From Serratia proteamaculans (GTDB lineage: Bacteria > Pseudomonadota > Gammaproteobacteria > Enterobacterales > Enterobacteriaceae), in contig NZ_SWDE01000004.1 in NCBI RefSeq assembly GCF_013337185.1, positions 186,001 to 250,000 on the forward strand: a DNA stretch of 64,000 nucleotides, given 5' to 3'. Made by a program: the position numbers and the translations under genes. The notes beneath the pieces were generated by a model. The model worked only from the letters and a program-made list of their open reading frames with translations, was not told the DNA's origin and made no database searches. Of this stretch, positions 2,641 through 64,000 are shown piece by piece (the first letter of the stretch is position 1; every line of letters starts with the position of its first letter).

Positions 2641-3342
2641 TCACACCGGCAAATCGATCAGCAGCGCGCGCAGCGGTGTCTCGGCGCGGATGGTCAGGCG
2701 GTTTTCTTCGTGGATAAACGCCCCATCGCCGCAGGTCAGGTATTGGCTGTCGTTGCGCTCGCCATGGGCTTTAATGGTACCGTGGATCGATTGCAGGTAC
2801 GCCCGAGGTCCGTTGAGCGCCAGCGTCTGCTGTTCGCCCGGTTGTAAATCCAGATGGTGGATCCACACCTGTTGACGCAGTTGCAGGCTGCCCTGAGCAC
2901 CGTCTGGAGAGGCCAGCAGGGTCAGCCCGGCCTCTGGCAACATCAGGCGCTGTACGCGTTCGTTGTTGCGCTCTGGGCAGGCATCCAGCCACAGCTGCAA
3001 ACGGGTCAGCGGTGTATCACTGCTGATGTTCTGCTCGCTGTAGCTCAGTCCCGGCTGGGTAGCCAGCAACAAAGCCTCACCGGCCTTGGCGCTGACCGTA
3101 TTGCCTTCGCTGTCGCGGTATTCCGCTTTACCTTGCAGGATTAAATTCAGGATATCCACGCTGGGATAGGTGCGTGGCTGGAAAGACGCACCCGGTGCCA
3201 GCACCTCCTGATTTAACACCCGCAGTGAGGCGTAACCCATCAGCTTGGGATCGAAGTAGTGTCCAAAAGAAAAGGTGTAGCGAGCCTGCAGCCAACCAAA
3301 GTCAGCTTGCCCGCATTGTTGTGCTGTTCTGCATGTAATCAT
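2641..3342 (-). CDS. yhaK: Pirin-family bicupin YhaK
   Basis: A 233-residue protein matching E. coli YhaK along its whole length, including the N-terminal TRTAxQCGQAD-like opening and the C-terminal LRALLIDLPV. The N-terminal half carries the pirin cupin, with FSFGHYFDP near residue 24. YhaK is described as a cytosolic, redox-sensitive bicupin of unclear physiological role; pirin relatives can have quercetinase activity. It is divergent from the LysR regulator yhaJ across 107 bp, the usual arrangement of a LysR gene and a target. That gap contains an 8-base motif shared with the yqjF upstream region. Confidence 0.93.
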   Translation of the reverse strand: MITCRTAQQCGQADFGWLQARYTFSFGHYFDPKLMGYASLRVLNQEVLAPGASFQPRTYPSVDILNLILQGKAEYRDSEGNTVSAKAGEALLLATQPGLSYSEQNISSDTPLTRLQLWLDACPERNNERVQRLMLPEAGLTLLASPDGAQGSLQLRQQVWIHHLDLQPGEQQTLALNGPRAYLQSIHGTIKAHGERNDSQYLTCGDGAFIHEENRLTIRAETPLRALLIDLPV

Positions 3343-3449
3343 GGCAATCGGCTCTCTAAATTCATTATCTAGATGGTAAGCATCTGGACGGCGGATTGTT
3401 AGCCAGTTAATCTGGTCGGTATATTCAAATTTCCTGACAGAGAGATTCG
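3343..3449. promoter_or_regulatory. yhaK/yhaJ divergent intergenic region with candidate YhaJ site
   Basis: The gap contains TTGTTAGC at 3396-3403, inside the imperfect dyad GATTGTTAGCCAGTTAATC (3394-3412). The same octamer occurs twice, as an inverted pair, upstream of yqjF. LysR regulators commonly bind dyads between their gene and a divergent target. That YhaJ binds here is inference. Confidence 0.4.
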
Positions 3450-4355
3450 ATGGCCAGAGATCGGGCGTTAACGCTTGAAGCGTTAAGGGTTATGGATGCG
3501 ATCGACCGACGTGGCAGCTTCGCTGCGGCAGCCGATGAGCTGGGGCGTGTGCCTTCGGCGCTCAGCTACACCATGCAAAAATTGGAAGAAGAATTGGATG
3601 TGGTGCTGTTTGATCGCTCCGGCCACCGCACCAAGTTCACCAACGTCGGACGCATGTTGCTTGAGCGTGGACGGGTGCTGCTGGAGGCGGCAGACAAGTT
3701 GACCACCGATGCAGAAGCGCTGGCACGCGGCTGGGAAACTCACCTGACTATTGTCAGCGAGGCGCTATCGCCACCGAGCAAATTGTTTCCGCTGGTCGAT
3801 AAGTTGGCGTTGAAGGCCAACACTCAGGTGTCGATCTTCACCGAAGTGTTGGCGGGAGCCTGGGAAAGGCTGGAGCAGGGGCGCGCCGATATCGTTATCG
3901 CTCCGGACATGCATTTTCGCGCGTCGTCCGAAATCAACACCCGCAAGCTGTACAAGGTGATGAGCGTGTATGTGGCCGCACCGAACCATCCCATTCATCT
4001 GGAGCCGGAGCCGCTGTCTGAAGTGACGCGCGTGAAGTACCGAGGCATTGCGGTAGCGGATACTGCGCGTGAGCGTCCGGTGTTGACCGTGCAATTGTTG
4101 GATAAACAGCAGCGTCTGACGGTCAGCACCATTGAGGACAAGCGCCTGGCTTTGCTGGCCGGTTTGGGCGTGGCGACCATGCCTTACCCGATGGTCGAGA
4201 AAGACATCGAAGAAGGGCGTTTACGCGTGGTGGGGCCGGAATACAGCCGCGAGGCTGATATTATCATGGCCTGGCGACGTGACAGCATGGGGGAGGCGAA
4301 AGCCTGGTTCCTGCGCGAAATTCCGCGGCTGTTCGCCCAACTGGAACGCCAGTAA
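3450..4355 (+). CDS. yhaJ: LysR-family transcriptional regulator YhaJ
   Basis: 301 residues with an N-terminal winged helix-turn-helix (about residues 8-66, core SFAAAADELGRVPSALSYTM) and a C-terminal periplasmic-binding-like effector domain. The sequence is nearly identical to E. coli YhaJ in the DNA-binding domain. In E. coli YhaJ is reported to activate yqjF and to respond to dinitrotoluene-related compounds or quinone-like metabolites; applying that here is inference from orthology. Its candidate targets yhaK, yqjG and yqjF are all within 2.5 kb. The ATG follows an AGAGAG ribosome site. Confidence 0.93.
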   Translation: MARDRALTLEALRVMDAIDRRGSFAAAADELGRVPSALSYTMQKLEEELDVVLFDRSGHRTKFTNVGRMLLERGRVLLEAADKLTTDAEALARGWETHLTIVSEALSPPSKLFPLVDKLALKANTQVSIFTEVLAGAWERLEQGRADIVIAPDMHFRASSEINTRKLYKVMSVYVAAPNHPIHLEPEPLSEVTRVKYRGIAVADTARERPVLTVQLLDKQQRLTVSTIEDKRLALLAGLGVATMPYPMVEKDIEEGRLRVVGPEYSREADIIMAWRRDSMGEAKAWFLREIPRLFAQLERQ

Positions 4356-4392
4356 AACTCCCCTTCGCCATTAAGCAAAGAGGAGGAGTGCG

Positions 4393-5379
4393 TTAACCGA
4401 AGCGCCGGTCACGGCCGTGTGGTTCATCCAAATCTTGCGCCGGCCCGATAGAAATAATGCCGTGCGGATTAATGGTGGCGTGGCTGCGGTAATAGTGATT
4501 GCGGATGTGCGGCAGACTGACCGTTTCGGCAATGCCCGGCATTTGGTAGATGTCACGCAGGAAGCCGTACAGGTTGAGGTAATCGCTGATACGGTGTTTG
4601 TCACATTTAAAATGGGTGACATACACCGGATCGAAGCGTATTAGCGTGGTCCACAGGCGCAGGTCGGCCTCAGTCAGGCGATCGCCCGTCAGGTAACGCT
4701 GTTGCCCCAGTATCTGCTCCAGTCGTGCCAGCGCGTCAAATACCCCGTTGACCGCTTCGTCATAGGCTTCCTGGCTGGTGGCAAAACCGGCCTTGTAGAC
4801 ACCATTATTCACCTGGTCATAAATCCAACCATTCAGTTCATCAATTTTTCCGCGCAGCTCGGTGGGGTAATAGTCACCGGCGCGCGCGCCAACACCATCA
4901 AATGCGCTGTTGAACATGCGAATGATATCGGCGGATTCATTGCTGACAATGGTCTGTTGCTGTTTGTCCCACAGCACTGGCACCGTTACACGACCGGTGT
5001 AGTGTTTGTCGGCACGCAGATAAAGTTGGTAGAGGAAGTCCGAGTGGTACAGGCTGTCGCCGGTGGCTTCAGGGAAGTCGGTGCCGAAGGTCCAGCCATT
5101 TTCCAGCATCAGCGGATGTACCACGGAAACAGGAATGAGTGACTCCAGCCCTTTCAATTTGCGCATCAGCAGGGTGCGGTGTGCCCAGGGGCAGGCGAGT
5201 GAAACGTACAGGTGATAACGATCTTGCTCCGCTTGAAAACCTCCAACTCCATGTTCGCCCGGCAGACCGCCTGCGGTCACCCAATTGCGGAACTGAGAGG
5301 TTGAGCGTTTGAAACGGCCTCCGGTAGATGAGGTGTCATACCAGATGTCTTGCCAAACGCCATCGACGAGTTGTCCCAT
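4393..5379 (-). CDS. yqjG: Glutathionyl-hydroquinone reductase YqjG
   Basis: 328 residues from the ATG at 5379, chosen because AAGGAG lies seven bases upstream and because it matches the E. coli length; an upstream in-frame ATG at 5412 has no such site. This is a Xi-class glutathione transferase. The active-site segment LACPWAHRTLL near residue 60 carries the catalytic Cys. The enzyme reduces glutathionyl-hydroquinones with glutathione and is cytosolic. It lies downstream of yqjF on the same strand but is separated from it by a clear terminator, so it may have its own promoter. Confidence 0.95.
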   Translation of the reverse strand: MGQLVDGVWQDIWYDTSSTGGRFKRSTSQFRNWVTAGGLPGEHGVGGFQAEQDRYHLYVSLACPWAHRTLLMRKLKGLESLIPVSVVHPLMLENGWTFGTDFPEATGDSLYHSDFLYQLYLRADKHYTGRVTVPVLWDKQQQTIVSNESADIIRMFNSAFDGVGARAGDYYPTELRGKIDELNGWIYDQVNNGVYKAGFATSQEAYDEAVNGVFDALARLEQILGQQRYLTGDRLTEADLRLWTTLIRFDPVYVTHFKCDKHRISDYLNLYGFLRDIYQMPGIAETVSLPHIRNHYYRSHATINPHGIISIGPAQDLDEPHGRDRRFG

Positions 5380-10608: not shown

Positions 10609-11907
10609 TTAACTGCGTGCAGAGGCCGGTTGTAGCGGATCTTCTTCCGGCTGGGAGGCCGGTCGATTTTGCAGAATGGTCCAGATGGCGATGGCACCGA
10701 GAATATCGAATACCGACAGCGCGGCGAACAGCGGGCTGAAGCCCAGGGTATCGGCCAATGCACCGACCACCAGGGCAAACATGGTGCTGGCGGTCCAGGC
10801 GGCCATGCCGGTCAGGCCGTTGGCGGTGGCCACTTCGTTGCGACCAAACACGTCAGAAGACAGGGTAATCAGCGCGCCAGACAGCGCCTGATGGGCAAAA
10901 CCACCGACGCACAGTAGCGCGATAGCTGCATAAGGGCTGGTGAACAAACCGATCATGCCAGGGCCAATCATCAGCACCGCACCCATAGTGACCACCAGTT
11001 TGCGTGAAACGATCAGGTTCACCTTGAAGTGCTTTTGGAAAAATGGTGGCAGGTAGCCACCCACGATGCAGCCGAGATCGGCGAACAGCATCGGCATCCA
11101 GGCGAACATGGCGATCTCTTTCAGGTTAAAACCATAGGCTTTGAACATGAATAACGGGATCCAGGCATTGAAGGTGCCCCAGGCAGGCTCAGCCAGAAAA
11201 CGCGGTAGTGCGATGCCCCAGAACTGGCGGTTGCGCACAATCTGCCAGGCGGACATTTTCTTGGCGTTGTCGGTTTGGTGCTGCGCTTCCTGGCCCTCCA
11301 GGATGTAATCGCGTTCCTCACTGCTGAGTTTCTTCTGGTCTTTCGGATGCTTATAGAAAATCAGCCAGCAGATGGCCCAGATCAGGCTCAGTACGCCGGT
11401 GATGATAAATGCCATTTCCCAACTGTGTGCCACTATGGCCCAAACCACCAGTGGTGGAGCGAGCATGCCGCCGATCGACGATCCGACGTTGAAGTAGCCA
11501 ACGGCAATTGAACGCTCTTTGGCCGGGAACCACTCGCTGCTGGCCTTGAGCCCGGCGGGGATCATCGCCGCCTCTGCCATGCCGACAGCGCCGCGTGCCA
11601 GTGCCAGCCCGCCCCAACTGTTGGCGAGCGCGGTGCCCATACAAAACAGCGCCCACAGAATGGCGAACATGGCATATCCCACCTTGGTACCCAATACGTC
11701 CAGTACGTATCCCGCCACCGGTTGCATCAGGGTGTAACAGGCTGAGTAGGCCGCGACAATGTATGAGTATTGCTGCGTGGTGATATGTAAGGTGCCTTCC
11801 AGCGTTGGTGCCGCCACGGCGATGGCGTTACGGGTCAGGTAGCCCAGCACGGTGCCAACGGTCACCAGCCCAATCATGTACCAGCGTAACCCTTTAATTT
11901 TACGCAT
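10609..11907 (-). CDS. exuT: ExuT hexuronate/H+ symporter (MFS)
   Basis: 432 residues from the ATG at 11907, preceded by GGGAGA; the in-frame ATG 36 bases upstream gives an unlikely extension. Twelve membrane helices of the anion:cation symporter branch of the MFS can be traced, starting with LRWYMIGLVTVGTVLGYLTRN. The conserved loop signature GYLFDxxG-like (GYVLDVLGTKVGYA near residue 68) is present. It imports galacturonate and glucuronate. It is divergent from uxaC, with an ExuR-like operator between them. Confidence 0.95.
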   Translation of the reverse strand: MRKIKGLRWYMIGLVTVGTVLGYLTRNAIAVAAPTLEGTLHITTQQYSYIVAAYSACYTLMQPVAGYVLDVLGTKVGYAMFAILWALFCMGTALANSWGGLALARGAVGMAEAAMIPAGLKASSEWFPAKERSIAVGYFNVGSSIGGMLAPPLVVWAIVAHSWEMAFIITGVLSLIWAICWLIFYKHPKDQKKLSSEERDYILEGQEAQHQTDNAKKMSAWQIVRNRQFWGIALPRFLAEPAWGTFNAWIPLFMFKAYGFNLKEIAMFAWMPMLFADLGCIVGGYLPPFFQKHFKVNLIVSRKLVVTMGAVLMIGPGMIGLFTSPYAAIALLCVGGFAHQALSGALITLSSDVFGRNEVATANGLTGMAAWTASTMFALVVGALADTLGFSPLFAALSVFDILGAIAIWTILQNRPASQPEEDPLQPASARS

Positions 11908-15287: not shown

Positions 15288-16523
15288 TTAACGTACCTTC
15301 AGCGGATCTTCATCTGCCAAACGTTGGTCTTCCGCCTGGCAAGCTGCTGCGGTGAACAGGACGTCGGTAGAAGAGTTCAGCGCGGTCTCGGCGGAGTCTT
15401 GCAGCACGCCGATGATAAAGCCGACGGCGACCACCTGCATGGCCACGTCGTTCGGAATGCCGAACATGTTACACGCCAATGGGATCAGCAACAGCGACCC
15501 CCCAGCCACACCTGAAGCGCCGCAGGCGCAGACGGCAGCCACGATGCTCAGCAGCAGCGCGGTCGGCACGTCAACCGGGATCCCCAGAGTATGCACCGCC
15601 GCCAGCGTCAGTACGGTAATGGTGATCGCCGCACCGGCCATATTAATGGTCGCGCCTAATGGGATAGAAACCGAATAGGTGTCTTCGTTCAGATTCAGCT
15701 TTTTGCACAGCTCCATATTCACCGGAATATTGGCGGCCGAGCTGCGGGTGAAGAACGCGGTCACGCCGCTTTCACGCAGGCAGGCGAACACCAGCGGGTA
15801 AGGATTGCGGCGGATTTTCCAGTAAACGATCAGCGGGTTCAGCACCAGTGCCACCAGCAACATACAGCCGATCAGCACCACCAGCAGTTGGGCATAACCC
15901 CACAGCGCACTGAAGCCGGTTTCTGCCAGCGTCGAAGCCACCAGGCCGAAGATGCCGAGCGGGGCGCAGCGGATCACTGCACGCACCACCATGGTGACGG
16001 CATGTGACAGATCGTTAATCAGTGATTTGGTGGTGTCAGAGGAGTGGCGTAGTGCCAGCCCCAGGCCCACAGCCCAGGCCAGAATACCGATATAGTTAGC
16101 GCTAATCAGCGCCTGGAACGGGTTGGCCACCACGCTCAACAGCAGGCCTTTCAGCACTTCAATAATACCGCCCGGCGGGTTGATGTCGGTATTGCCTGCT
16201 ACCAGTGCCAGATTGGACGGGAACATAAAGCTGAGTACCACCGCCACCAGCGCCGCAGCGAAAGTGCCCAGCAGGTAGAGGAACAGGATCGGCCGGATAT
16301 TGGTTTTCTGCCCGTGCTTGTGATTGGCGATTGAGGCCATTACCAACACCAGTACCAATACCGGAGCCACTGCTTTCAGTGCGCCAACGAACAGCGCGCC
16401 CAGCAAGCCGACTGCCGAAGCCGTTGCCGGTGAGACCAGCGCAACGATAATACCGGCCACCAGGCCGACCATGATTTGTTTGACCAGACTGCCCTGAGTG
16501 ATCTTCTGTAATAGTTTTTGCAT
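15288..16523 (-). CDS. sstT: SstT, Na+/serine-threonine symporter
   Basis: 411 residues of the dicarboxylate/amino acid:cation symporter (DAACS) family, with eight helices, re-entrant hairpins and conserved segments SSAANIPVN (near residue 260), [10 protein letters not shown] (near 293) and [12 protein letters not shown] (near 337). It imports L-serine and L-threonine with sodium. Neighbour of alx, as in E. coli. The 266-bp gap upstream holds its promoter and a hairpin ending alx. Confidence 0.95.
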
Positions 16524-16758
16524 AGTGCTTTTTCTTCCCGATGATGTTGCTTACAGCTTTATCTCGGCGGGAACCTCGCCGGACAACTTTTATTTGAATC
16601 TGTAACCAGGTGTGTTTGCCAAATCAGTATTCAGTAAACCAGGGGGGTTGGAAAGGGCCAGCGGTGAAATTCTGAGGGCGGATCAACTCTTGATAACATA
16701 CTGGTTACATTTGTGTGATCGCAATAACGTTTGGCGTTTTAGGCGAATTGCCAAACAA

Positions 16759-16781
16759 TCACGGGGCGACTAGCGCCCCGG
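16759..16781 (-). terminator. Probable terminator after alx
   Basis: CGGGGCG and CGCCCCG (16762-16780) form a 7-bp stem with a 5-base loop; on the minus strand it is followed by TGATTGTTT. Otherwise I see no gene in 16524-16789. Confidence 0.5.
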
Positions 16782-16789
16782 ATAACAGA

Positions 16790-17764
16790 TTATGGTGCTT
16801 TATTATTCGCCAGGCGGTCATTCCGGCGGTTAACCCAGGCGTTGATCAACAGCGTCAGCGTCAGGATACTGGCGACGACACCGAGCGAAACACCGATCGG
16901 AATGTGGAATAAATCGATAATCAGCATTTTGACGCCGATAAACATCAGGATCAGCGACAGGCCATATTTCAGCATCGAGAAGCGTTCTGCCACGTTAGCC
17001 AGCAAGAAGTACATGGCGCGCAGCCCCATGATGGCAAACAGGTTAGAAGTCAGGACGATGAACGGGTCGGTGGTCACGGCAAAGATCGCCGGGATGCTGT
17101 CGACCGCAAAGATCACATCGCTCAGTTCTACCAGGATCAGCACCAGCACCAGCGGTGTAGCAAACAGCAGGCCGTTGCGGCGCACGAAGAAGCGCTCACC
17201 TTCCAGATTATCGGTCATGCGCAGATGGCTGCGCAGCCATTTCACCAGCGGCTTGTCGCCAATTGCTGCGCCATCTTCCTTCGCCAGCGCCATCTTGATA
17301 CCGGTAAACAGCAGGAAAGCGCCGAACAGGTACAGCAGCCACTGGAACTGGGTCACCAGCCAGCTACCGGCGAAGATCATGATGGTACGCAGTACGATCG
17401 CGCCCAGTACGCCAAAAATCAGCACCCGGCGTTGCAGGTTTGCCGGCACGGCAAAGTAGCTGAACAGCATCAGCCAGACAAAGACGTTATCAACCGCCAG
17501 CGCTTTTTCGATCAGGTAGCCGGTGAGGAAGGCCAGCGCCTGAGTATCGGCAACGGCACGCCCGGCGGTTTGGTTCAGGTAGTACCAGAAACCCAGGTTG
17601 AACAGCAGAGAAAGGCTGACCCACACCAGCGACCAACTGGCGGCCTGCTTCAGCGTCATGGTATGTGCGCCTTTGCGGCCCTGCAGCAGCAGGTCAATTG
17701 CGAGCATCACAACTATGATGGCGGCAAAGCTGCCCCATAACCAAGGTGTGCCAACGGTATTCAT
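16790..17764 (-). CDS. alx: Alx, TerC-family manganese-related membrane protein
   Basis: 324 residues from the second of two tandem ATGs (the E. coli start MNTVGTP). It is a TerC-family protein with about nine membrane helices and conserved acidic motifs: [12 protein letters not shown] near residue 101 after EKxLAVD, and [19 protein letters not shown] near 213. Alx is induced at alkaline pH and by manganese and is implicated in Mn2+ export. A yybP-ykoY riboswitch directly upstream supports this role. Confidence 0.95.
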
Positions 17765-17781
17765 CATCAGTGGTATCCTTC

Positions 17782-17980
17782 AAAAACAAAAACGGCCAAC
17801 GTCGGAAGACGCTAGCCGCTCTTATGAACGCTGCAAGCAAACCTCGCCTTCCGGCAAGGTCTCACTTACAACGTTGATGAAGGTGCACCTTGGTGCTCCC
17901 TGACATCAGGTTGCCCGGTAACCGGGTGCTTGCGCACCGTAATGACGATTAACCGGCAATGAAGTTACTCCCCTTTGCAC
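17782..17980 (-). promoter_or_regulatory. yybP-ykoY (Mn2+) riboswitch / PRE leader of alx
   Basis: Reading the minus strand from 17980, the leader begins with the conserved GGGGAGTA segment and later has the family signature GAGACCTTGCCGG near 17853-17866. Both are hallmarks of yybP-ykoY aptamers and the alx PRE. It ends in an 11-bp stem (17793-17818, two G-T wobbles, TTCC loop) followed by TTTTTGTTTTT, then the AAGGA ribosome site of alx. The layout supports control of alx by Mn2+ (and pH). Confidence 0.88.
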
Positions 17981-55915: not shown

Positions 55916-55927
55916 GGTCTTCTCCTC

Positions 55928-56126
55928 ATACCCGTCATCTTTCAAGCTGCAGCGTTGTTACCTGCTTACAAGGCCCATCCATGGGCCTTGCCCTTTCAGG
56001 GCCGCTGCAAGCAGCGTTCAAATCTGTTCCCGACAGATTTGTCGCTCACCCCAGTTACTTACTAAAGTAAGCGCCTGGGGATGAGCGAGCTGGGCGCCTA
56101 GCTGCAACTTGAAAGCTATAGGGTAT
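55928..56126. repeat. ERIC (IRU) element with a hairpin-rich internal insert
   Basis: The ends ATACCC and GGGTAT and the central ERIC core (CCCCAGTTACTTACT and GTAAGCGCCTGGGG) define an ERIC repeat of 199 bp. It shares its outer halves with the 125-bp copy at 62709. After ACCTGC it carries about 75 extra bases with three perfect hairpins: AAGGCCCAT/ATGGGCCTT near 55972-55991, GCTGC/GCAGC near 56003-56014, and AAATCTGT/ACAGATTT near 56020-56040. Confidence 0.85.
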
Positions 56127-57117: not shown

Positions 57118-58143
57118 TCAGGCTGGCGTGATTTTATCGGCAAAACCGCAGGACTCTCGAATCACCAAAGAAGGCGGCAGGATGATGCGTTTGGGTGGTT
57201 CATCATTGCCCTGAATACGGCTGTACAGCAGTTCCCCGGCCTTCCGGCCAATCTCGCGCGAGGCCACCGATACGGTAGTCAAACCTGGCTGCACCAGCGA
57301 GGCTTCGGTAATATCATCAAAACCAATTAGTGCAAAATCACGGCCAATCTGGCGGTCGAGTTTGCGTAATGTCTGCATCACCCCCAGCGCGACAATGTCC
57401 TGATAGCATAAGGCCGCAGTGATTTCCGGATGGGCTTTCAGCAGTTGTTCCGCTGCCTTGGCACCGGAACTCTGGCTGGCCTCGCTGTCTACAATCCATT
57501 CCCCGTTGACCATAATCCCGTGTTCCAGCAGCTTGCTGGTGTAGCCGCCCAGCCGCTGCGCGCGGGTAGTCGAGTTGATAGATCCCCCGATAAAGGCGAT
57601 ATGGCGATGCCCCAAATCCAGCAGATGCTGCGTTGCTAACTGGGTACCCAGAAAGTTGTCGGTGCCGACAAAGTCAAAGTGTGCATCGGCCACCGGCCTG
57701 ACCACCATAATGGCCGGGATCTTGCGGCGCTTCAGCGTTTCAAAAAACAGCGGGGGCGTTTGCCGGGCGGCGCACAGCACCATACCGCTGGTATTGTTTT
57801 GCAGCAGGGAGTCGACAAATTTTTGCTGCCTGTCGGCGGACTCTTCGCTGTTGGCCAGAAACAGCATCAACTGGTGGCGCTCCATTTCCTGGCTCAGCCC
57901 GGCGGTCATCTCCGCATAAAACGGGTTGGTGATGTCGTGCAGCAGCAGGCCGACCTGATTGCTGCTGCGATTGCGCAGGTTGGCGGCGGTCTGATTGTAG
58001 ACATAGCCCAGTTCATCAATGGCGCTCAGCACTCGTTTGCGGGTGGCGTCCGATATGCGGCCACGATTGCGCAATACCATCGATACGGTCGCGGTGGAGA
58101 CTTTTGCGTGCGCGGCGACGTCCGCCAAGGTTATTGTGCTCAT
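57118..58143 (-). CDS. LacI/GalR-family transcriptional repressor of the adjacent PTS operon
   Basis: 341 residues. An N-terminal LacI helix-turn-helix (LADVAAHAKVSTATVSMVLRN at residues 6-26) with hinge helix and a PBP-I-like effector domain (about 60-335, GLLLHDITNPFYAEM near 65) are seen. It is divergent from the mannose-type PTS operon across 214 bp containing two ATCGAT-centred dyads, so it very likely represses that operon. The effector is presumably the incoming sugar or its phosphate. The closest E. coli relatives by feel are MalI-like; the gene is not part of the conserved ygi cluster. Confidence 0.85.
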   Translation of the reverse strand: MSTITLADVAAHAKVSTATVSMVLRNRGRISDATRKRVLSAIDELGYVYNQTAANLRNRSSNQVGLLLHDITNPFYAEMTAGLSQEMERHQLMLFLANSEESADRQQKFVDSLLQNNTSGMVLCAARQTPPLFFETLKRRKIPAIMVVRPVADAHFDFVGTDNFLGTQLATQHLLDLGHRHIAFIGGSINSTTRAQRLGGYTSKLLEHGIMVNGEWIVDSEASQSSGAKAAEQLLKAHPEITAALCYQDIVALGVMQTLRKLDRQIGRDFALIGFDDITEASLVQPGLTTVSVASREIGRKAGELLYSRIQGNDEPPKRIILPPSLVIRESCGFADKITPA

Positions 58144-58174
58144 TTCATCTCCTGTCGGGGCCGACTGTCATATC

Positions 58175-58194
58175 AAGGTATATCGATTAACCTT
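58175..58194. promoter_or_regulatory. LacI-type operator 1
   Basis: AAGGTATATCGATTAACCTT is a 20-bp dyad centred on ATCGAT with one mismatched base pair on each side. It lies 32 bases upstream of the LacI-family gene start codon, suited to autoregulation. Confidence 0.6.
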
Positions 58195-58218
58195 ATTCCG
58201 TAAAATTCCGCTAATAAA

Positions 58219-58236
58219 TCGTGATTCCTGTCACGA
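58219..58236. promoter_or_regulatory. CRP-like site
   Basis: TCGTGA-N6-TCACGA is a perfect dyad matching the CRP pattern GTGA-N6-TCAC. It lies midway between the divergent genes, consistent with catabolite control of a PTS sugar operon. Confidence 0.6.
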
Positions 58237-58303
58237 AAGTTCGGCTTTTTATAGGGTTATTATCGATTCTATGAGGTTAATCTCGTTAATCAGCCTGTTT
58301 AAC

Positions 58304-58325
58304 TAAAGGTTAATCGATTAATCTT
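58304..58325. promoter_or_regulatory. LacI-type operator 2
   Basis: The perfect 12-bp palindrome TTAATCGATTAA (58310-58321), extended to AAAGG on the left and TCTTT on the right, lies 37 bases before the isomerase start. A TTAACT -10-like element is at its left edge. A weaker ATCGAT half-match is near 58261-58269. Confidence 0.65.
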
Positions 58326-58357
58326 TTTCTATGTATCCAGCTCATAGGCAGAAGAAT

Positions 58358-60127
58358 ATGACAGACCAACAGCATAAATCAACCAGCTATGACAAGTATC
58401 CGGAAGTGGCGGTGCAGGGGTTTGACCGCGCCGCCTGGCAAGGCTGGCAGGCAGTGACCGAGGCGGTCAGCCGGAAGATTGCCGCCTTAGAGCTGCGCAA
58501 AACCCTGTTGGTAGTGGATTGCTACCATGGGGTGAATCTGGCAGAGCTAATCGAGAATTTTATTCATCCTCTGCAGCCGGTCAGTAGCGTCAATGCCGAA
58601 TTGGCCAAATACGATGAGCCACACATCCACGCGATGATTGAGCGCAATTTAACGGATGACCGTGTGTTTGGCGTGCTGTCGTGCCATGAAATGCCCGAGT
58701 TTTTTGATGCTGAGCGCGTCCAGCAGTTGCGCGATCAAATTGCGCGCGTCGACAGTGGGCTGGTGGTGGTTTATGGGCCGGGTGCGGCGCTGATCGCCGA
58801 AGCCGATGTATTGGTGTATGCCGACATGGCCCGCTGGGAAATTCAGCAGCGTTTCCGCCGCGGCGAACTGGGTAACTGGGGGGCGAATAATGTGGACGAA
58901 GATGTGCTGCGCCGCTACAAGCGAGCCTTCTTCGTGGAATGGCGAGTCTTCGATCGTCATAAAACCCCGTTGCTACAGCGTGCCGATTTTGTGTTGGACA
59001 CCAATCAGGCCGGCCAACCCAAGCTGGTGACCGGTGCGGCTTTCCATGCCGGATTGCAGCAGGCGACCCAACGCCCATTCCGCGTAGTGCCGTTTTTCGA
59101 CCCCGGCGTTTGGGGCGGCCAGTGGATGAAGCAACAGTTCGATCTCGACCCGACGGCAGCCAACTATGCATGGTGTTTTGACTGCGTGCCCGAGGAAAAC
59201 AGCCTGCTAATGCGTTTTGGTGACGTTCGGGTCGAGATCCCCTCACAGGATTTGGTGCTGTTATATCCTCAACCCTTGCTGGGTGAGCGGGTACATGCCC
59301 GTTTCGGTGCCGAATTCCCGATTCGCTTTGACCTGCTCGATACCGTCGGCGGGCAAAATCTCAGCTTCCAGGTGCACCCGCTGACGGAATACATCCAGCA
59401 GCATTTCGGTATGCATTACACCCAGGATGAAAGCTATTACATTCTGGCGGCAGAGCCGGGTTCCGAAGTGTACCTGGGCGTGAAAAACGGCACCGAACCG
59501 CAGGCGATGATGGCTGACCTGGCCGCCGCCCAAAGAGGTGAGAAAGCTTTCGATGACCAGCGTTTTGTGAATCGTTTCCCGGCGCGTAAACATGACCATT
59601 TCCTGATCCCAGCGGGGACGGTGCACTGTTCCGGCTTCGGCGCCATGGTGCTGGAGATCAGCGCTACGCCGTACATTTTCACCTTCAAACTGTGGGATTG
59701 GGGCCGCCTGGGATTAGATGGCCAGCCACGCCCGGTGCATCTGCAGCATGGCGAGCAGGTGATCAACTGGCAGTGCGACACCACCTGGGCGAAGGAGCAC
59801 CTGGTAAACCGCATTGAACCGGTTGCCGAAGGTGCGGGCTGGCAGGAAGAGCGAACCGGTTTGCACGAGCGCGAATTTATCGAAACCCGTCGCCACTGGT
59901 TTAGTGAACCGGTGCTGCACCATACCGAAGGCCGGGTGAACGTGTTGAATCTGGTCGAAGGGGAAGAGGCGGTGGTTGAAAGCCCGGAAGGCCATTTCGC
60001 GCCCTTTGTGGTGCATTACGCTGAAACCTTCATCGTACCGGCCGCAGTGGGGCCGTATCGCATCAGCCCCCATGGTCGCAGCCTGGGCAAAACCTTGGGC
60101 ACCATCAAAGCCTGGGTAAGGGGATAA
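58358..60127 (+). CDS. Two-domain class-I mannose-6-phosphate isomerase
   Basis: 589 residues from the ATG at 58358. Residues about 250-589 are a cupin phosphomannose isomerase: the zinc ligands lie in SFQVHP (Q338, H340), QDES (near 358) and GTVHCSG (H423), with FTFKLWDWGRLG near 445. The N-terminal ~245 residues look like a uridine-kinase-type domain in which the nucleotide-binding loop is replaced by DCYHGVNLAE (near residue 50), so it is probably not a kinase. It should interconvert mannose-6-phosphate and fructose-6-phosphate. First gene of the PTS operon. Confidence 0.82.
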   Translation: MTDQQHKSTSYDKYPEVAVQGFDRAAWQGWQAVTEAVSRKIAALELRKTLLVVDCYHGVNLAELIENFIHPLQPVSSVNAELAKYDEPHIHAMIERNLTDDRVFGVLSCHEMPEFFDAERVQQLRDQIARVDSGLVVVYGPGAALIAEADVLVYADMARWEIQQRFRRGELGNWGANNVDEDVLRRYKRAFFVEWRVFDRHKTPLLQRADFVLDTNQAGQPKLVTGAAFHAGLQQATQRPFRVVPFFDPGVWGGQWMKQQFDLDPTAANYAWCFDCVPEENSLLMRFGDVRVEIPSQDLVLLYPQPLLGERVHARFGAEFPIRFDLLDTVGGQNLSFQVHPLTEYIQQHFGMHYTQDESYYILAAEPGSEVYLGVKNGTEPQAMMADLAAAQRGEKAFDDQRFVNRFPARKHDHFLIPAGTVHCSGFGAMVLEISATPYIFTFKLWDWGRLGLDGQPRPVHLQHGEQVINWQCDTTWAKEHLVNRIEPVAEGAGWQEERTGLHEREFIETRRHWFSEPVLHHTEGRVNVLNLVEGEEAVVESPEGHFAPFVVHYAETFIVPAAVGPYRISPHGRSLGKTLGTIKAWVRG

Positions 60128-60132
60128 GCCGT

Positions 60133-60561
60133 ATGTTGAAAGTGATAGTGACTTCCCATGGCCCGCTGGCTGAGGCGCTGATGAGCAGCGCGCGTATGGT
60201 TTACGGTGAATTGCCGGGGACCAGCCATGTGGGCCTGAGTGAAGGTGCCGGTATCGAAGCCTTTAAACAGAATTTTGCCGACGAATTGCAGCGGGTGAGT
60301 GCCGGGGCCGACGGGGTACTGGTGCTGTGCGACATGCTGTGCGGCACGCCTTACAACGTGGCCTGTCGCCACGCTTTTGATCCCCAAACACCGGTGCCGA
60401 TAGCCGTGGTGACCGGCGTAAATTTCCCGATGCTGTTGATGAGTGCCGAATTGCTGGAAGAAAAGGACGTTCACCAGGCGGCTCAAGAGCTGGTAGCGCT
60501 GGCGGGTGAGGCGATTGCCGTTGCCCGTCCGGCGGTAACGGCGCAATTGGACGATTTCTGA
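60133..60561 (+). CDS. Mannose-family PTS enzyme IIA
   Basis: 142 residues of the EIIA-Man family (PF03610). The phosphorylated histidine is H9 in VTSHGPLAEA, and LCDMLCGTPYN near residue 67 is the conserved Asp loop. It accepts phosphate from HPr and passes it to EIIB. It starts five bases after the isomerase stop. Unlike E. coli ManX, EIIA and EIIB here are separate proteins. Confidence 0.9.
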   Translation: MLKVIVTSHGPLAEALMSSARMVYGELPGTSHVGLSEGAGIEAFKQNFADELQRVSAGADGVLVLCDMLCGTPYNVACRHAFDPQTPVPIAVVTGVNFPMLLMSAELLEEKDVHQAAQELVALAGEAIAVARPAVTAQLDDF

Positions 60562-60570
60562 GGAGAGAAG

Positions 60571-61065
60571 ATGGCCATTTCATTTGTACGTATCGACGAC
60601 CGGGTTATTCACGGTCAACTGGTGACCCGCTGGGCGAAGGAATTGCCTTGCGACGGTATTGTGGCGATCGATGATGAGGTGGCGGCAGACCCGTTGCTGT
60701 CATCGGTGATGAAGGGGGCGGTGCAGGACACTAAAGTGTGGTTGTTTACCGTGCAGCAGGCGATAGAAAAGCTGCCGAAGGTGATTGCCAGCGACAAGCA
60801 GTACTTTGTGATCGGCAAGTCGCCGGTCACGCTGCGCAGGCTGACAGAGGCAGGGATCGATCTGAGTAATCGTAACAAGAAAATTAACGTTGGGCCGATG
60901 TCTGCCCGCAAGGACACGGTGACCATTGGGCCCAATCAATCGGTAAGCACACCAGAGGCAGAGGCCTTCGATTTCCTGGCTGAACAGGGACATGCCATCG
61001 AATTCCGTTTAGTTCCTGACGCCAGTCATTTCAGTTGGCTGGACGCTAAAAAGAAACTCAAATAA
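60571..61065 (+). CDS. Mannose-family PTS enzyme IIB
   Basis: 164 residues of the EIIB-Man/Sorbose family (PF03830). The active histidine is H14 in RIDDRVIHGQLVTRW. It transfers phosphate to the sugar during transport. GGAG lies upstream of the ATG, nine bases after EIIA. Confidence 0.92.
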   Translation: MAISFVRIDDRVIHGQLVTRWAKELPCDGIVAIDDEVAADPLLSSVMKGAVQDTKVWLFTVQQAIEKLPKVIASDKQYFVIGKSPVTLRRLTEAGIDLSNRNKKINVGPMSARKDTVTIGPNQSVSTPEAEAFDFLAEQGHAIEFRLVPDASHFSWLDAKKKLK

Positions 61066-61087
61066 GCCTGAACGGCAGGAGTGAACT

Positions 61088-61888
61088 ATGTGGTTTGAAG
61101 CGACGCTTATCGGGATACTTTGCTATCTCGGTGCGCTGAGCAGCCCCTGGCTGCTGGGACTGACCGGAGGCTGGTATATTCTCAGCCGCCCGCTGGTCTC
61201 CGGCATGCTGGTGGGGGCTATTCTCGGCGATGTACAGACCGGCATTATCATCGGTGTTGCGGTACAGGCGGTGTATATCGCCATGGTAACACCGGGCGGA
61301 TCGATGCCGGCCGATCTCAACTTTGTGGCGTTCCCGGCGATTGCGCTGGGCATTCTTTCCGGTAAAGGAACCGAGGTAGCGGTGGCGCTGGCGGCGACTA
61401 TCGGCATCATGGGCACTGTGTTGTTCAACGCCATGATGGTGCTCAATTCCTACTGGAATCACCGGGCGGATCTGGCGGTAGAGCGCGGTGATGAGCGAGG
61501 GATTTACCTCAATAGTGCCATCTGGCCGCAGGTCACCAACTTGCTGCTGCGTTTTATACCGACGTTTATCGCGGTCTTTTTCGGGGCGCGCTATATCAAC
61601 GCCTTTATGGACAGCCTGCCGGCGCTGGTGTTGACCACCATGAACGTGGTGGGCGGCATTTTGCCTGCGGTCGGCATCGCCATTCTTCTTAAACAGATTA
61701 TTAAAAGCTACAGCATGCTGATTTACTTCCTGGTGGGGTTCATCTGCATCGTTTTCCTCAAGCTGAATATGGTGGCGCTGGTGATTGTCGGCGCGCTGCT
61801 GGCACTGATTCACTACAACTATAAGCCAGAGCCGCAGGTGGCCGCCGCACAGGCCGCGCCTCAGGCTGATGATGAGGATGAATTCTGA
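61088..61888 (+). CDS. Mannose-family PTS enzyme IIC
   Basis: 266 residues with about seven membrane helices and the EIIC-sorbose pattern of Gly-rich loops (GVAVQAVYIAMVTPGG near residue 57, FVAFPAIALG near 80). It forms the sugar channel with EIID. Its stop shares a base with the EIID start (TGATG), so the two are translationally coupled. Confidence 0.92.
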   Translation: MWFEATLIGILCYLGALSSPWLLGLTGGWYILSRPLVSGMLVGAILGDVQTGIIIGVAVQAVYIAMVTPGGSMPADLNFVAFPAIALGILSGKGTEVAVALAATIGIMGTVLFNAMMVLNSYWNHRADLAVERGDERGIYLNSAIWPQVTNLLLRFIPTFIAVFFGARYINAFMDSLPALVLTTMNVVGGILPAVGIAILLKQIIKSYSMLIYFLVGFICIVFLKLNMVALVIVGALLALIHYNYKPEPQVAAAQAAPQADDEDEF

Positions 61889-62709
61889 TGGATACGCCAA
61901 CACCTAAATTGAATAAGCAGGATCTGCGTCGTTGCTGGCGCAGCTGGATGATGTACAACCTGTCATCGATGAGCTTCGAACGCCTGGAATCTTACGGTTT
62001 TTGCCTGAGCATGATGCCGGCGCTGAAAAAACTGTATCAGGATAAACAGCAGCGTATTGAAGCCATTCGCCGTCATACCTCTTTCTATAATACCGAGCCA
62101 CAGCTGGGCGCGATTGTTAACGGCATGGTGATTGGGCTGGAAGAAAAACGCGCCAACGGCGAGCCGATCGACGGGGAAACCATCAACACGCTCAAAGTCG
62201 GGTTGATGGGGCCGGTGGCCGGCATTGGTGACTCGATGGTACCGGGCATGCTGATCCCGATTTTGTTGAGTATCGGCATGGCACTGGCGGCCGGTGGCAG
62301 TGTGATTGGCCCGCTGTTTTACATCATCGCGTTTAGCCTGATCGTCATTCCGGGGTCTTACTGGCTGTTTATGAAAGGCTACAACATGGGCTCCGGCTCG
62401 GTGGAGATGCTGGTCAGCAGCAAGTCCTCACGGCTGCGAGAGGCACTTTCCCTGCTGGGGGTGTTCGTCATGGGCGGCGTAGCGGCGAGTTACGTCAAAC
62501 TGGGGACCGGCTTGGAGTTTGTTACCAAAGACGGGGTGAATATCCACCTGCAGCAAATGCTGGACGGTATTTTCCCTAACCTGATGCCGTTGATCGTGGT
62601 GCTGGCGACCTGGTACCTGATGGCTAAGCGCGGGCTTTCGCCGGTGAAAGCGATGCTGGGGCTGCTGGTGTTGGCAGCGGTAGGGGTAGCCTGCGGCCTA
62701 TTCTCATAA
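61888..62709 (+). CDS. Mannose-family PTS enzyme IID
   Basis: 273 residues of the EIID-Man family (PF03613), opening with DLRRCWRSWMMYNLSSMSFERLE-type sequence and containing the conserved GLMGPVAGIGDSM segment near residue 107 and C-terminal membrane helices. It completes the transporter. The ERIC element begins at its stop codon, and no terminator other than the ERIC hairpin is visible. Confidence 0.92.
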   Translation: MDTPTPKLNKQDLRRCWRSWMMYNLSSMSFERLESYGFCLSMMPALKKLYQDKQQRIEAIRRHTSFYNTEPQLGAIVNGMVIGLEEKRANGEPIDGETINTLKVGLMGPVAGIGDSMVPGMLIPILLSIGMALAAGGSVIGPLFYIIAFSLIVIPGSYWLFMKGYNMGSGSVEMLVSSKSSRLREALSLLGVFVMGGVAASYVKLGTGLEFVTKDGVNIHLQQMLDGIFPNLMPLIVVLATWYLMAKRGLSPVKAMLGLLVLAAVGVACGLFS

Positions 62710-62833
62710 TACCCGTCGCCTTTCAAGTTGCAGCGTTGTTACCTGCACTCACTCCCCCCAGTTACTTACTTAAGTAAGCGCCTGGGGATGAGTGAGCTGG
62801 GCGCCTAGCTGCAACTCGAAATTCATAGGGTAT
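62709..62833. repeat. ERIC (IRU) element
   Basis: A 125-bp copy with ends ATACCC and GGGTAT and the ERIC core (CCCCAGTTACTTACTT, GTAAGCGCCTGGGG). It fills the gap between the convergent PTS operon and the cupin isomerase genes. Its outer halves match those of the copy at 55928. Confidence 0.9.
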
Positions 62834-62866
62834 GAAATTTCCTGTTATTGAACGAGACAGTGGTCT

Positions 62867-63649
62867 TTATGGCTCAAATCGTTGCCATTTTTCCGCGACG
62901 CTACCCGGTTTGGAAATGAACTGAAAGCGTGCCGGTTCGGCTTCAAACTGCGAATATAAGGGAGCGTCGCTCAAACCGAACTCGTGGTATTGGCGTGGTC
63001 CGATGGCGTGCAGCCTGCCGGATTGATAGCGCGGATTCTGTTGCCAGATAATATTGCTGCCCTGCAACAGCGGGTACCAGGCCAGCCCTTTGTACTCACG
63101 GACGGCATCATATTCGAAGCCATATTCACGATCGCACCAGGCGGCGAAGGTCAGCGGCTGGTTGGGATCGGCGGAAATGGTGGCGTGTGCCCATCCTGGC
63201 GGCACCAGCACCTTCTCACCCGGTCCGGCATGCACGGCAAAGCAACGTCCCGGCTCATGCTCAACCCGTTCTTGCATGTAAATAATGGCCTTGCCTTGCC
63301 AGATCTCGTACAGCTCCGGCGGTGACCAGCCACTGTGTACGCTGATGCGGTGCACATGGCCCTGGCTGCGTACCGGCTCCTGACCCAACTGGCCTTTGGC
63401 ATAGGTGACAATGCCGAACAGCAACATGCGCTTTTTCAATTCAGCCAAATGCTGCTGTTTAGCGACGTCCATGGCGATGGCATAGACCTGTTCTGGCCCG
63501 CTGCAGTCGGGATCGCGCAGGGAGCGGCGGATTTGTTCCAACGTCCGAATCTCCGGCAAGGGGCCAATCACTTCCTCGCCATAGCCGAATCCCATCGGGT
63601 TGTCGCTAATGCGTACATCAAGGCCAAATTGCAGCATCGAGTCACTCAT
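62867..63649 (-). CDS. Cupin-type phosphoglucose isomerase-like protein (downstream copy)
   Basis: 260 residues from the ATG at 63649, with GGAGG seven bases upstream. A cupin core contains HVHRISVHSGWSPPELYEIWQGKA (near residue 92) with metal-type His residues and a Glu, and VLVPPGWAHATIS near 143. This is the pattern of archaeal-type glucose-6-phosphate isomerase (PF06560-like). The C-terminal extension (about 175-260) is unlike the compact enzyme. Overlaps the upstream cupin gene by eight bases. It may isomerise the sugar phosphate delivered by the PTS; the substrate is unknown. Confidence 0.7.
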   Translation of the reverse strand: MSDSMLQFGLDVRISDNPMGFGYGEEVIGPLPEIRTLEQIRRSLRDPDCSGPEQVYAIAMDVAKQQHLAELKKRMLLFGIVTYAKGQLGQEPVRSQGHVHRISVHSGWSPPELYEIWQGKAIIYMQERVEHEPGRCFAVHAGPGEKVLVPPGWAHATISADPNQPLTFAAWCDREYGFEYDAVREYKGLAWYPLLQGSNIIWQQNPRYQSGRLHAIGPRQYHEFGLSDAPLYSQFEAEPARFQFISKPGSVAEKWQRFEP

Positions 63650-64000
63650 ATTGCGCCTCCGCTTTCCAACCGCTGCCATCGGCAAACACCCGCAATTTGA
63701 AACCCTGTGGCTGCAGTGCGTCGTAGTTGTGTCCCGCCACCGTTGGCCAGACTGCCAGTGCCGACAGCACCTCAGTACCGGTGTTGATCAGGCGGTGAGC
63801 GGTAAAGGAAGGAATATGGTGAACGCTGCCGGGGGAAACCTGTTCCAGCCTGCAAGCACCGTCCCGGTGTTGCAGCAGCAGCAAACCCTGGCCACGCAAG
63901 CCAAAATAGAATTCCGCCTGTTCGGGGCGTTGATGAAAATGCCCACGGGTCATAAAGAACTCGTTGCCTACCCGGCCAGGTTGCAGATGAGTGGTGCCTA
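63642..64000 (-). CDS. Cupin-type phosphoglucose isomerase (5' end outside window)
   Basis: The frame runs open from the TGA/TAA at 63642 leftward to the window edge at 64000, so only the C-terminal ~119 residues are seen; the ATG at 63953 is internal. MTRGHFHQRPEQAEFYFGLRG and the VHHIPSFTAHRLINTG and VWPTVAGHNYD segments match the core of cupin glucose-6-phosphate isomerase (GHxH and Glu metal ligands, proline-rich strand). It lies upstream of, and overlaps by eight bases, the second cupin gene, so the two are co-transcribed. Confidence 0.82.
   Translation of the reverse strand, partial: GTTHLQPGRVGNEFFMTRGHFHQRPEQAEFYFGLRGQGLLLLQHRDGACRLEQVSPGSVHHIPSFTAHRLINTGTEVLSALAVWPTVAGHNYDALQPQGFKLRVFADGSGWKAEAQYE

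Follow-up and report, generated by a model that had tools for sequence, protein, structure and literature searches.

An accessory sugar-uptake and isomerisation gene block with paired cupins in Serratia proteamaculans

Introduction

We examined a stretch of 64,000 nucleotides from Serratia proteamaculans (assembly GCF_013337185.1, contig NZ_SWDE01000004.1, positions 186,001 to 250,000; hereafter the window), at the end of which lies a block of eight genes for the uptake and isomerisation of a sugar. The genes stand in the order lacI, two-domain PMI, EIIA, EIIB, EIIC, EIID, cupin 2 and cupin 1 (Table 1). A LacI-family repressor gene is divergent from an operon for a two-domain isomerase of the phosphomannose isomerase (PMI) type and the four enzyme II (EII) proteins of a mannose-type phosphotransferase system (PTS), and this operon converges on two cupin genes related to cupin-type phosphoglucose isomerase (PGI). 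Known enzyme types are here combined in a new way, and the one real puzzle is the pair of cupins. No title or abstract listed in searches of open-licence full texts deals with this cassette. The trio of PMI, cupin 1 and cupin 2 is rare, yet with different transporters it turns up in bacteria ranging from Enterobacterales to Acidobacteria, Bacteroidota and Bacillota; annotations such as “class I mannose-6-phosphate isomerase” or “glucose-6-phosphate isomerase family protein” may therefore conceal a catabolic step that is conserved.

Table 1. Features of the gene block (window positions; those above 64,000 lie beyond the window)
Feature	Position	Strand	Remarks
LacI-family repressor, MalI-like, 341 aa	57118..58143	-	PF00356/PF00532; NCBIfam MalI subfamily
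Operator-like palindrome at lacI end, GGTATATCGATTAACC	58177..58192		2 mismatches
CRP-like site CGTGA-N6-TCACG	58220..58235		Read from sequence
Operator GGTTAATCGATTAATC, directly 5' of preferred PMI start	58308..58323		Exact match
Two-domain PMI-like isomerase, 589 aa	58358..60127	+	From ATG 58358; open reading frame (ORF) opens at 58331
PMI N-domain	~58358-59068
PMI C-domain	~59069-60127		Type I PMI fold
PTS EIIA, mannose family	60133..60561	+	PF03610
PTS EIIB, mannose/sorbose family	60571..61065	+	PF03830
PTS EIIC, mannose/sorbose family	61088..61888	+	PF03609
PTS EIID, mannose family	61888..62709	+	PF03613
Dispersed intergenic repeat between convergent operons	62706..62836		Outside pathway
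Cupin 2, 260 aa	62867..63649	-	Divergent PF06560 protein
Cupin 1, 187 aa, cupin-PGI-like	63642..64000	-	Window part only; start at 64205, beyond window (L009 9642-10205)
Second exact operator GGTTAATCGATTAATC, 5' of cupin 1	64251-64266		Outside window (L009 10251-10266)

Occurrence of the gene block in enteric bacteria

Named genomes were scanned with a cupin 2 alignment and the best 80 of 344 relatives were kept, of which 64 are enterobacterial-type loci (one of them, L084, is filed as Chryseobacterium). The exact eight-gene order is present in 55 of these 64, directly in 52 and in three more (L052, L059, L064) with EIIA located by tblastn. The remaining nine comprise one locus cut at a contig end (L047), one with the cupins elsewhere (L063) and seven with insertions (L071, L078, L080, L087, L094, L098, L101). 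Chromosomal sites vary, including the ygiC/ygiD interval in Serratia and Chimaeribacter and, in many others, the vicinity of ispH/rihC or dapB/carAB (gene names by recognition).

In the family sample, cupin 2 was found in 22 of 196 genomes, and cupin 1 at an identity of at least 57% in the same 22; a weaker cupin 1 match (32-36%) occurs in two further genomes, G171 and G086. PMI was found in 26 of 198 genomes, among them all 22 with cupin 2. PMI without cupin 2 is seen in four genomes: G004 and G171, which hold paralogues (49-53%), G054, with a decayed PMI and LacI, and G107, where the PTS operon is present and the assembly is 81% complete. A Fisher test on the co-occurrence gives 2e-25, a value that overstates independence because the genomes are related. 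PMI was likewise present in all 12 genomes chosen for having cupin 2. The eight-gene set is accessory, as an earlier note on this DNA had proposed for the sugar-uptake and isomerisation unit: in the genus sample, 9 of 30 genomes have PMI. When positions 9440-18500 of L073, filed as E. coli, were compared by megablast with 5426 complete E. coli genomes, no matching site spanned 80% of the query (the eight rows listed hold the dapB-carA match only); the source of L073 is therefore judged not to be a typical E. coli.

Several variants of the block were seen as well. Paralogous cassettes without cupin 2 (L132 2311-13774 and L133 2109-13565) combine LacI, EIIABCD, an MtlD-like dehydrogenase, PMI (49-53%), an AGE-type epimerase, a zinc-dependent alcohol dehydrogenase and a second PTS protein. 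In a decaying copy in G054 (L134 5345-10621), PMI is broken into three ORFs and LacI into two, EIID is shortened, and cupin 2 was not found in that genome. L080 carries two PMI copies (2774-4537 and 16222-17970), one behind a glycoside hydrolase family 38 (GH38) gene and an EII gene and one before EIIABCD. In L101, an ORF of 221 aa (10863-11528) between cupin 2 and EIID looks, by eye, like a family 25 glycosyltransferase.

A common operator upstream of both operons

The palindrome GGTTAATCGATTAAYC stands 5' of both operons, and its exact matches in the genome (5.28 Mb) are these two only. In relatives, an operator was called at a score of at least 13 of 16, and 1300 windows drawn at random from these loci served as controls; the upstream counts include L140 and both PMI copies of L080, L047 and L063 are without a PMI region, and L094 is without a called cupin 1. 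The operator was found upstream of PMI in 61 of 64 cases and upstream of cupin 1 in 59 of 63; of the 1300 controls, 2 had it. At the three PMI misses (L071, L078, L080), a GH38 gene lies directly 5' of a PMI copy and the operator stands 5' of the EII gene; the four cupin 1 regions below the score are those of L045, L046, L053 and L089. The CRP-like site reaches at least 8 of 10 in 61 of 64 PMI upstream regions and at least 9 of 10 in 54 (controls: 89 and 5 of 1300, respectively). Both the LacI-type and the CRP-type site that the earlier note had read on the left operon are thus conserved 5' of PMI.

The repressor scores 323 bits with the NCBIfam MalI model, above the cut-off of 310. Typically malI is adjoined by malXY; no malXY lies beside the MalI-like gene here, and its divergent partner is the PMI-PTS operon. 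Since the genome holds only two exact operators, one 5' of PMI and one 5' of cupin 1, and these are conserved in relatives, one sugar-sensing LacI-type repressor apparently switches all eight genes. The common operator also offers an experimental handle, as a single reporter with inducer screens would show the sugar.

The cupins might nevertheless be an unrelated operon that merely adjoins the PTS operon. The two operons are convergent with a dispersed repeat between them, and the cupins lie apart from PMI in L063, L105 and Parabacteroides. This explanation, already disfavoured, is highly improbable in view of the shared operator and of the presence of PMI in all 22 cupin 2 genomes of the family, and the operator is kept even after separation: Buttiauxella sp. 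B2, whose cupins (L063) lie apart from the PTS operon (L140), retains a perfect one. The claim of the earlier note that the cupins are part of the unit is borne out by the shared operator and the co-occurrence.

Other sites of this genome that resemble the operator with two mismatches (L160, L161, L163) were considered, and none was counted as a regulon member. That of L160 is within the 5' end of an ORF which we take to be mlc; that of L161 stands 5' of an ORF, presumably ppsA, and the site itself presumably resembles a Cra site.

The two-domain PMI and the mannan-type neighbours of its relatives

The C-terminal domain has the fold of type I phosphomannose isomerases. Its residues Q337, H339, E357, H422, E432 and R449 are invariant and align with Q97, H99, E134 and H255 (metal ligands), E264 and R274 of Salmonella ManA, all but Q97 numbered according to PDB titles. 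No Pfam or NCBIfam model recognises the two-domain protein in the scans of the window proteins. For the N-terminal domain, the best PDB sequence match has E 0.5, and a Pfam search of five such domains at E <= 10 returned one chance-level match. Its motifs DCYxGV and DxLVYADMARWEIQ look kinase-like by eye; a uridine-kinase-like domain was rejected as improbable after profile comparison with uridine kinase/PRK sequences, which gave a probability of 0.1-0.2%. The domain may still adopt a known fold.

Relatives of this PMI stand in one stretch with GH38 (L112, L113, L114, L138, L142, L180, L182, L183, L199, L201) or with GH76, GH92 or GH125 (L199, L200, L201, L203). Among five distant PMI stretches, GH38 is present in L180, L182 and L183 and absent from L179 and L181. 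PMI also matched 75 plasmid records, of which 20 were listed and eight were examined via that match. In four of the eight, PMI belongs to mannan-type clusters: with GH38, GH76 and GH125 in Streptomyces tendae, with GH76 and GH92 in Spirosoma, with GH92 in Hymenobacter tibetensis, and with GH92 and GH38 in Parabacteroides distasonis (ROK-GH92-MFS-GH38). The other four are without an annotated mannosidase. Here PMI is accompanied by an AGE epimerase, ROK and an ABC transporter (Deinococcus), by flanking GntR regulators and a nearby PTS IIC (Listeria), by ROK, ABC and an aldo/keto reductase (Arthrobacter), or, in a LacI-PMI arrangement with operator-like sites, by an EII that follows it and is 32% identical to that of L080 (Photobacterium).

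Because its relatives sit in alpha-mannan clusters, the PMI most likely converts mannose-6-phosphate to fructose-6-phosphate, and the two-domain protein appears to be a recurrent mannose-6-phosphate isomerase of such clusters. These clusters, together with the GH38 add-ons of enteric loci, uphold the mannosyl-type source named in the earlier note. Neither its suggestion of a less common sugar nor the idea that both cupins are isomerases acting on this sugar received support; the neighbours of PMI elsewhere point to plain mannose.

A PF20511 search of nine genomes gave no match in G208 (L058, Yersinia aleksiciae), G198 and G201, although these have the two-domain PMI; their housekeeping ManA could be absent or divergent.

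PTS subunits and changing loading modules

All four PTS subunits exceed the cut-offs of their Pfam families. The arrangement resembles the ManXYZ-type mannose PTS with ManA, in which a mannose-family EII complex is likewise joined to phosphomannose isomerase-type chemistry. It differs in that the subunits fall below the ManXYZ cut-offs of NCBIfam, the PMI is of another, two-domain family, control is of the LacI type, and two cupins are added.

Across species, the isomerase core is constant and the loading modules vary. GH38 is present in 8 of the 64 enterobacterial-type loci. In seven of them the GH38, which is MngB-like, and an MngA-like EII, either intact or fragmented, belong to the cassette or adjoin it; the eighth, L052, is without this EII. 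This recalls the MngAB mannosylglycerate system of E. coli. However, the L080 genes, to which alone the MngA and MngB models were applied, reach 445 and 641 bits where the equivalog cut-offs are 763 and 1138, respectively, and the window has no such genes. A cellobiose-type EIIC with a GH1 enzyme resembling 6-phospho-beta-glycosidases occurs in L117 and is also inserted in the enteric loci L080 and L087. The glucomannan gmu operon of Bacillus subtilis combines a cellobiose-type PTS, GH1 and PMI, and is not known to include a cupin pair; in gene content, L080, L087 and L117 echo this combination. As for the mixed mannosyl/glucosyl compound proposed in the earlier note, the GH38/MngA-like EII and GH1/cellobiose-type EIIC add-ons make such a supply plausible, although not proven.

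Outside the enterics the genes are rare. With the centre genome counted, cupin 2 was found in 3 of 296 Bacteroidota-centred genomes, and PMI in 5 of 398 genomes centred on Bacillota and in 3 of 198 centred on Spirochaetota. Loci with PMI and one or both cupins occur in Acidobacteria, Calditrichota, Spirochaetes, Bacteroidota and Bacillota, and a further type of loading module is a ROK kinase with an MFS or ABC transporter. L179, from Bacillota, joins PMI and cupin 2 to a mannose-type EIIABCD (EIIC 66%, EIID 60% identity), and a Persicobacter plasmid record, reached via a cupin match, reads GntR-cupin 1-ROK-PMI-cupin 2.

The two cupins and what they may do

Both cupins match PF06560 well above its cut-off of 20.7 bits (63 bits for the window part of cupin 1, 60 bits for cupin 2). 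Cupin 1 resembles the solved cupin-PGIs, such as that of Pyrococcus furiosus, over ~150 residues (E 1e-37 to 1j3p), and has all the metal ligands; the H-x-H / E / H site (H89, H91, E98, H137) is invariant in 12 sequences. Unlike the Pyrococcus furiosus enzyme, cupin 1, whose activity is predicted, is paired with a longer, divergent cupin in all 22 cupin 2 genomes of the family, within a sugar regulon. Cupin 2 keeps the metal site (H99, H101, E113, H156, invariant in 20 sequences), has YGFEY in place of AGHDY, and carries a nearly invariant Phe at the His equivalent to what we take to be H158 of the Pyrococcus furiosus PGI. Its best PDB sequence match has E 4e-7, and its best Foldseek match is to cupin-PGI. 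It is conserved across phyla: 19 relatives, picked out of the 120 best, show 58-73% identity. A fused cupin, P0145 (441 aa), on a single 3.1 kb contig, probably reflects a frameshift where the two genes overlap and was not used.

Two distant settings of cupin genes were also recorded. In Parabacteroides distasonis, a polysaccharide-type cluster (L193 11524-24770) contains AraC, cupin 1, ROK, cupin 2, MFS, a hydrolase that differs little from structure 3gyc, GH2, SusC and SusD, and its GH2 is 54-58% identical to GH2 genes of L108, L112 and L114. The Salmonella plasmid pST1030-1B (L194 6171-9906) bears, between resistance genes and insertion sequence (IS) elements, an operon of a ptsG-like gene, a distant cupin (24% to cupin 2), hxlB and hxlA, which is a PTS with 3-hexulose-6-phosphate enzymes.

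The cupins could serve as backup glycolytic isomerases, with no new chemistry. Pgi is inhibited by mannose-6-phosphate; plain mannose or glucose would enter through a second mannose-type PTS, and the cupins would take over when Pgi is inhibited or limiting as mannose-6-phosphate accumulates. The close match of cupin 1 to solved enzymes and its intact metal site agree with this idea, as does the description of cupin-PGIs as metal-dependent and specific for glucose-6-phosphate and fructose-6-phosphate (PMC12965863). We consider it unlikely, for it leaves unexplained both the pair of two different cupins and the cupin link to a ROK/GH2 cluster without PMI.

A bolder and equally doubtful explanation is that the trio forms an undescribed relay for a rarer hexose-6-phosphate. 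The PTS would import a less common hexose, for example an allose-, altrose- or talose-type sugar, and the cupins, acting sequentially or as a heteromer, would go beyond C1-C2 isomerisation, for instance by a carbonyl shift to a 3-hexulose phosphate or by C3 epimerisation; PTS, glycosidase or kinase modules would be interchangeable suppliers of the hexose-6-phosphate, the PMI would contribute only one step, and fructose-6-phosphate would be reached without an aldolase or second kinase. Consistent with this, the smallest sets (L137, L179, L195 and the window) consist of a transporter with a kinase, or a PTS, plus the isomerases, with no aldolase recognised in the stretch, as expected of a relay that works by isomerisation alone. 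Furthermore, the Cohnella cupins lie beside an FGGY kinase and sugar-alcohol-type dehydrogenases, cupin 2 is divergent and has the nearly invariant Phe, and its 24% identical relative stands in the ptsG-like-cupin-hxlB-hxlA operon (one of five Salmonella records listed was examined). On the other hand, the hxl comparison spans only that 24% identity, the cassette comes with no recognised epimerase gene, the PMI relatives belong to alpha-mannan clusters, and the GH38 add-ons imply mannose. Some room is left for such a relay because the substrate of the cupins need not be that of the PMI, since the cupins live apart from it in Parabacteroides and Cohnella.

A proposed route to fructose-6-phosphate

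We favour, with moderate confidence, a single LacI-type regulon of two convergent operons in which a mannose-type hexose enters through the PTS and is brought to fructose-6-phosphate by the PMI and the cupins. As in other members of its family, EIIABCD would take up a mannose-like hexose and phosphorylate it at C6. The PMI would then convert mannose-6-phosphate to fructose-6-phosphate, a step suggested by its fold, by the metal ligands that it keeps and by the mannan-type genes found next to its relatives. Cupin 1, metal-dependent and PGI-like, and cupin 2 would interconvert other hexose-6-phosphates, most simply glucose-6-phosphate and fructose-6-phosphate; this is the weakest step. Hexose-6-phosphates from mannosyl or glucosyl sources would all drain to fructose-6-phosphate, and no further enzyme would be needed because this enters glycolysis. 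Judging from the sites, the repressor, probably released by a sugar or a sugar phosphate, would control both operons through the common operator, and CRP would activate the PTS operon.

Several observations weigh against this route. No result explains the need for two cupin isomerases with mannose or glucose, and a housekeeping ManA is present in this genome. None of the four PTS subunits reaches any NCBIfam cut-off, Man, Aga and Sor models included. Parabacteroides distasonis has the cupins (CUP1-ROK-CUP2-MFS-3gyc-like-GH2-SusCD) and PMI in separate loci, and in Cohnella the cupins (L105) accompany an FGGY kinase and polyol-type dehydrogenases, with PMI elsewhere. Cupin 1 is not in the fetched stretches L179 and L136, which means that beyond the enterics the two cupins do not always go together; no cupin was found in the fetched PMI stretches L132, L133, L180-L183, L201, L202 and L204, among others, and no recognised mannosidase in the distant PMI stretches L179, L181, L132, L133, L198, L202 and L204. 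Finally, the equivalents of ManA K86 and K132 are D324 and Q355 in all 18 aligned sequences. As proof of a new substrate these changes were rejected, the same Asp and Gln being present in relatives beside GH38 (L112, L114); mannose-6-phosphate probably stays the best PMI substrate because these GH38-neighbouring members share them.

Neighbouring features

The earlier note had advised reading past 64 kb for more pathway genes; this turned up neither a kinase nor a glycosidase of the pathway, nor another regulator for it. Beyond cupin 1, 3' of the window, lie ygiC, ygiB, gldA, dhaKLM, dhaR and tolC, of which dhaKLM, dhaR and gldA are a glycerol/dihydroxyacetone set. The repeat between the convergent operons, which we take to be ERIC-like, has 44 further pieces at ~38 places among the matches listed, with 40 of 115 candidates scored; another copy lies, in two pieces, at window positions 55920-56126.

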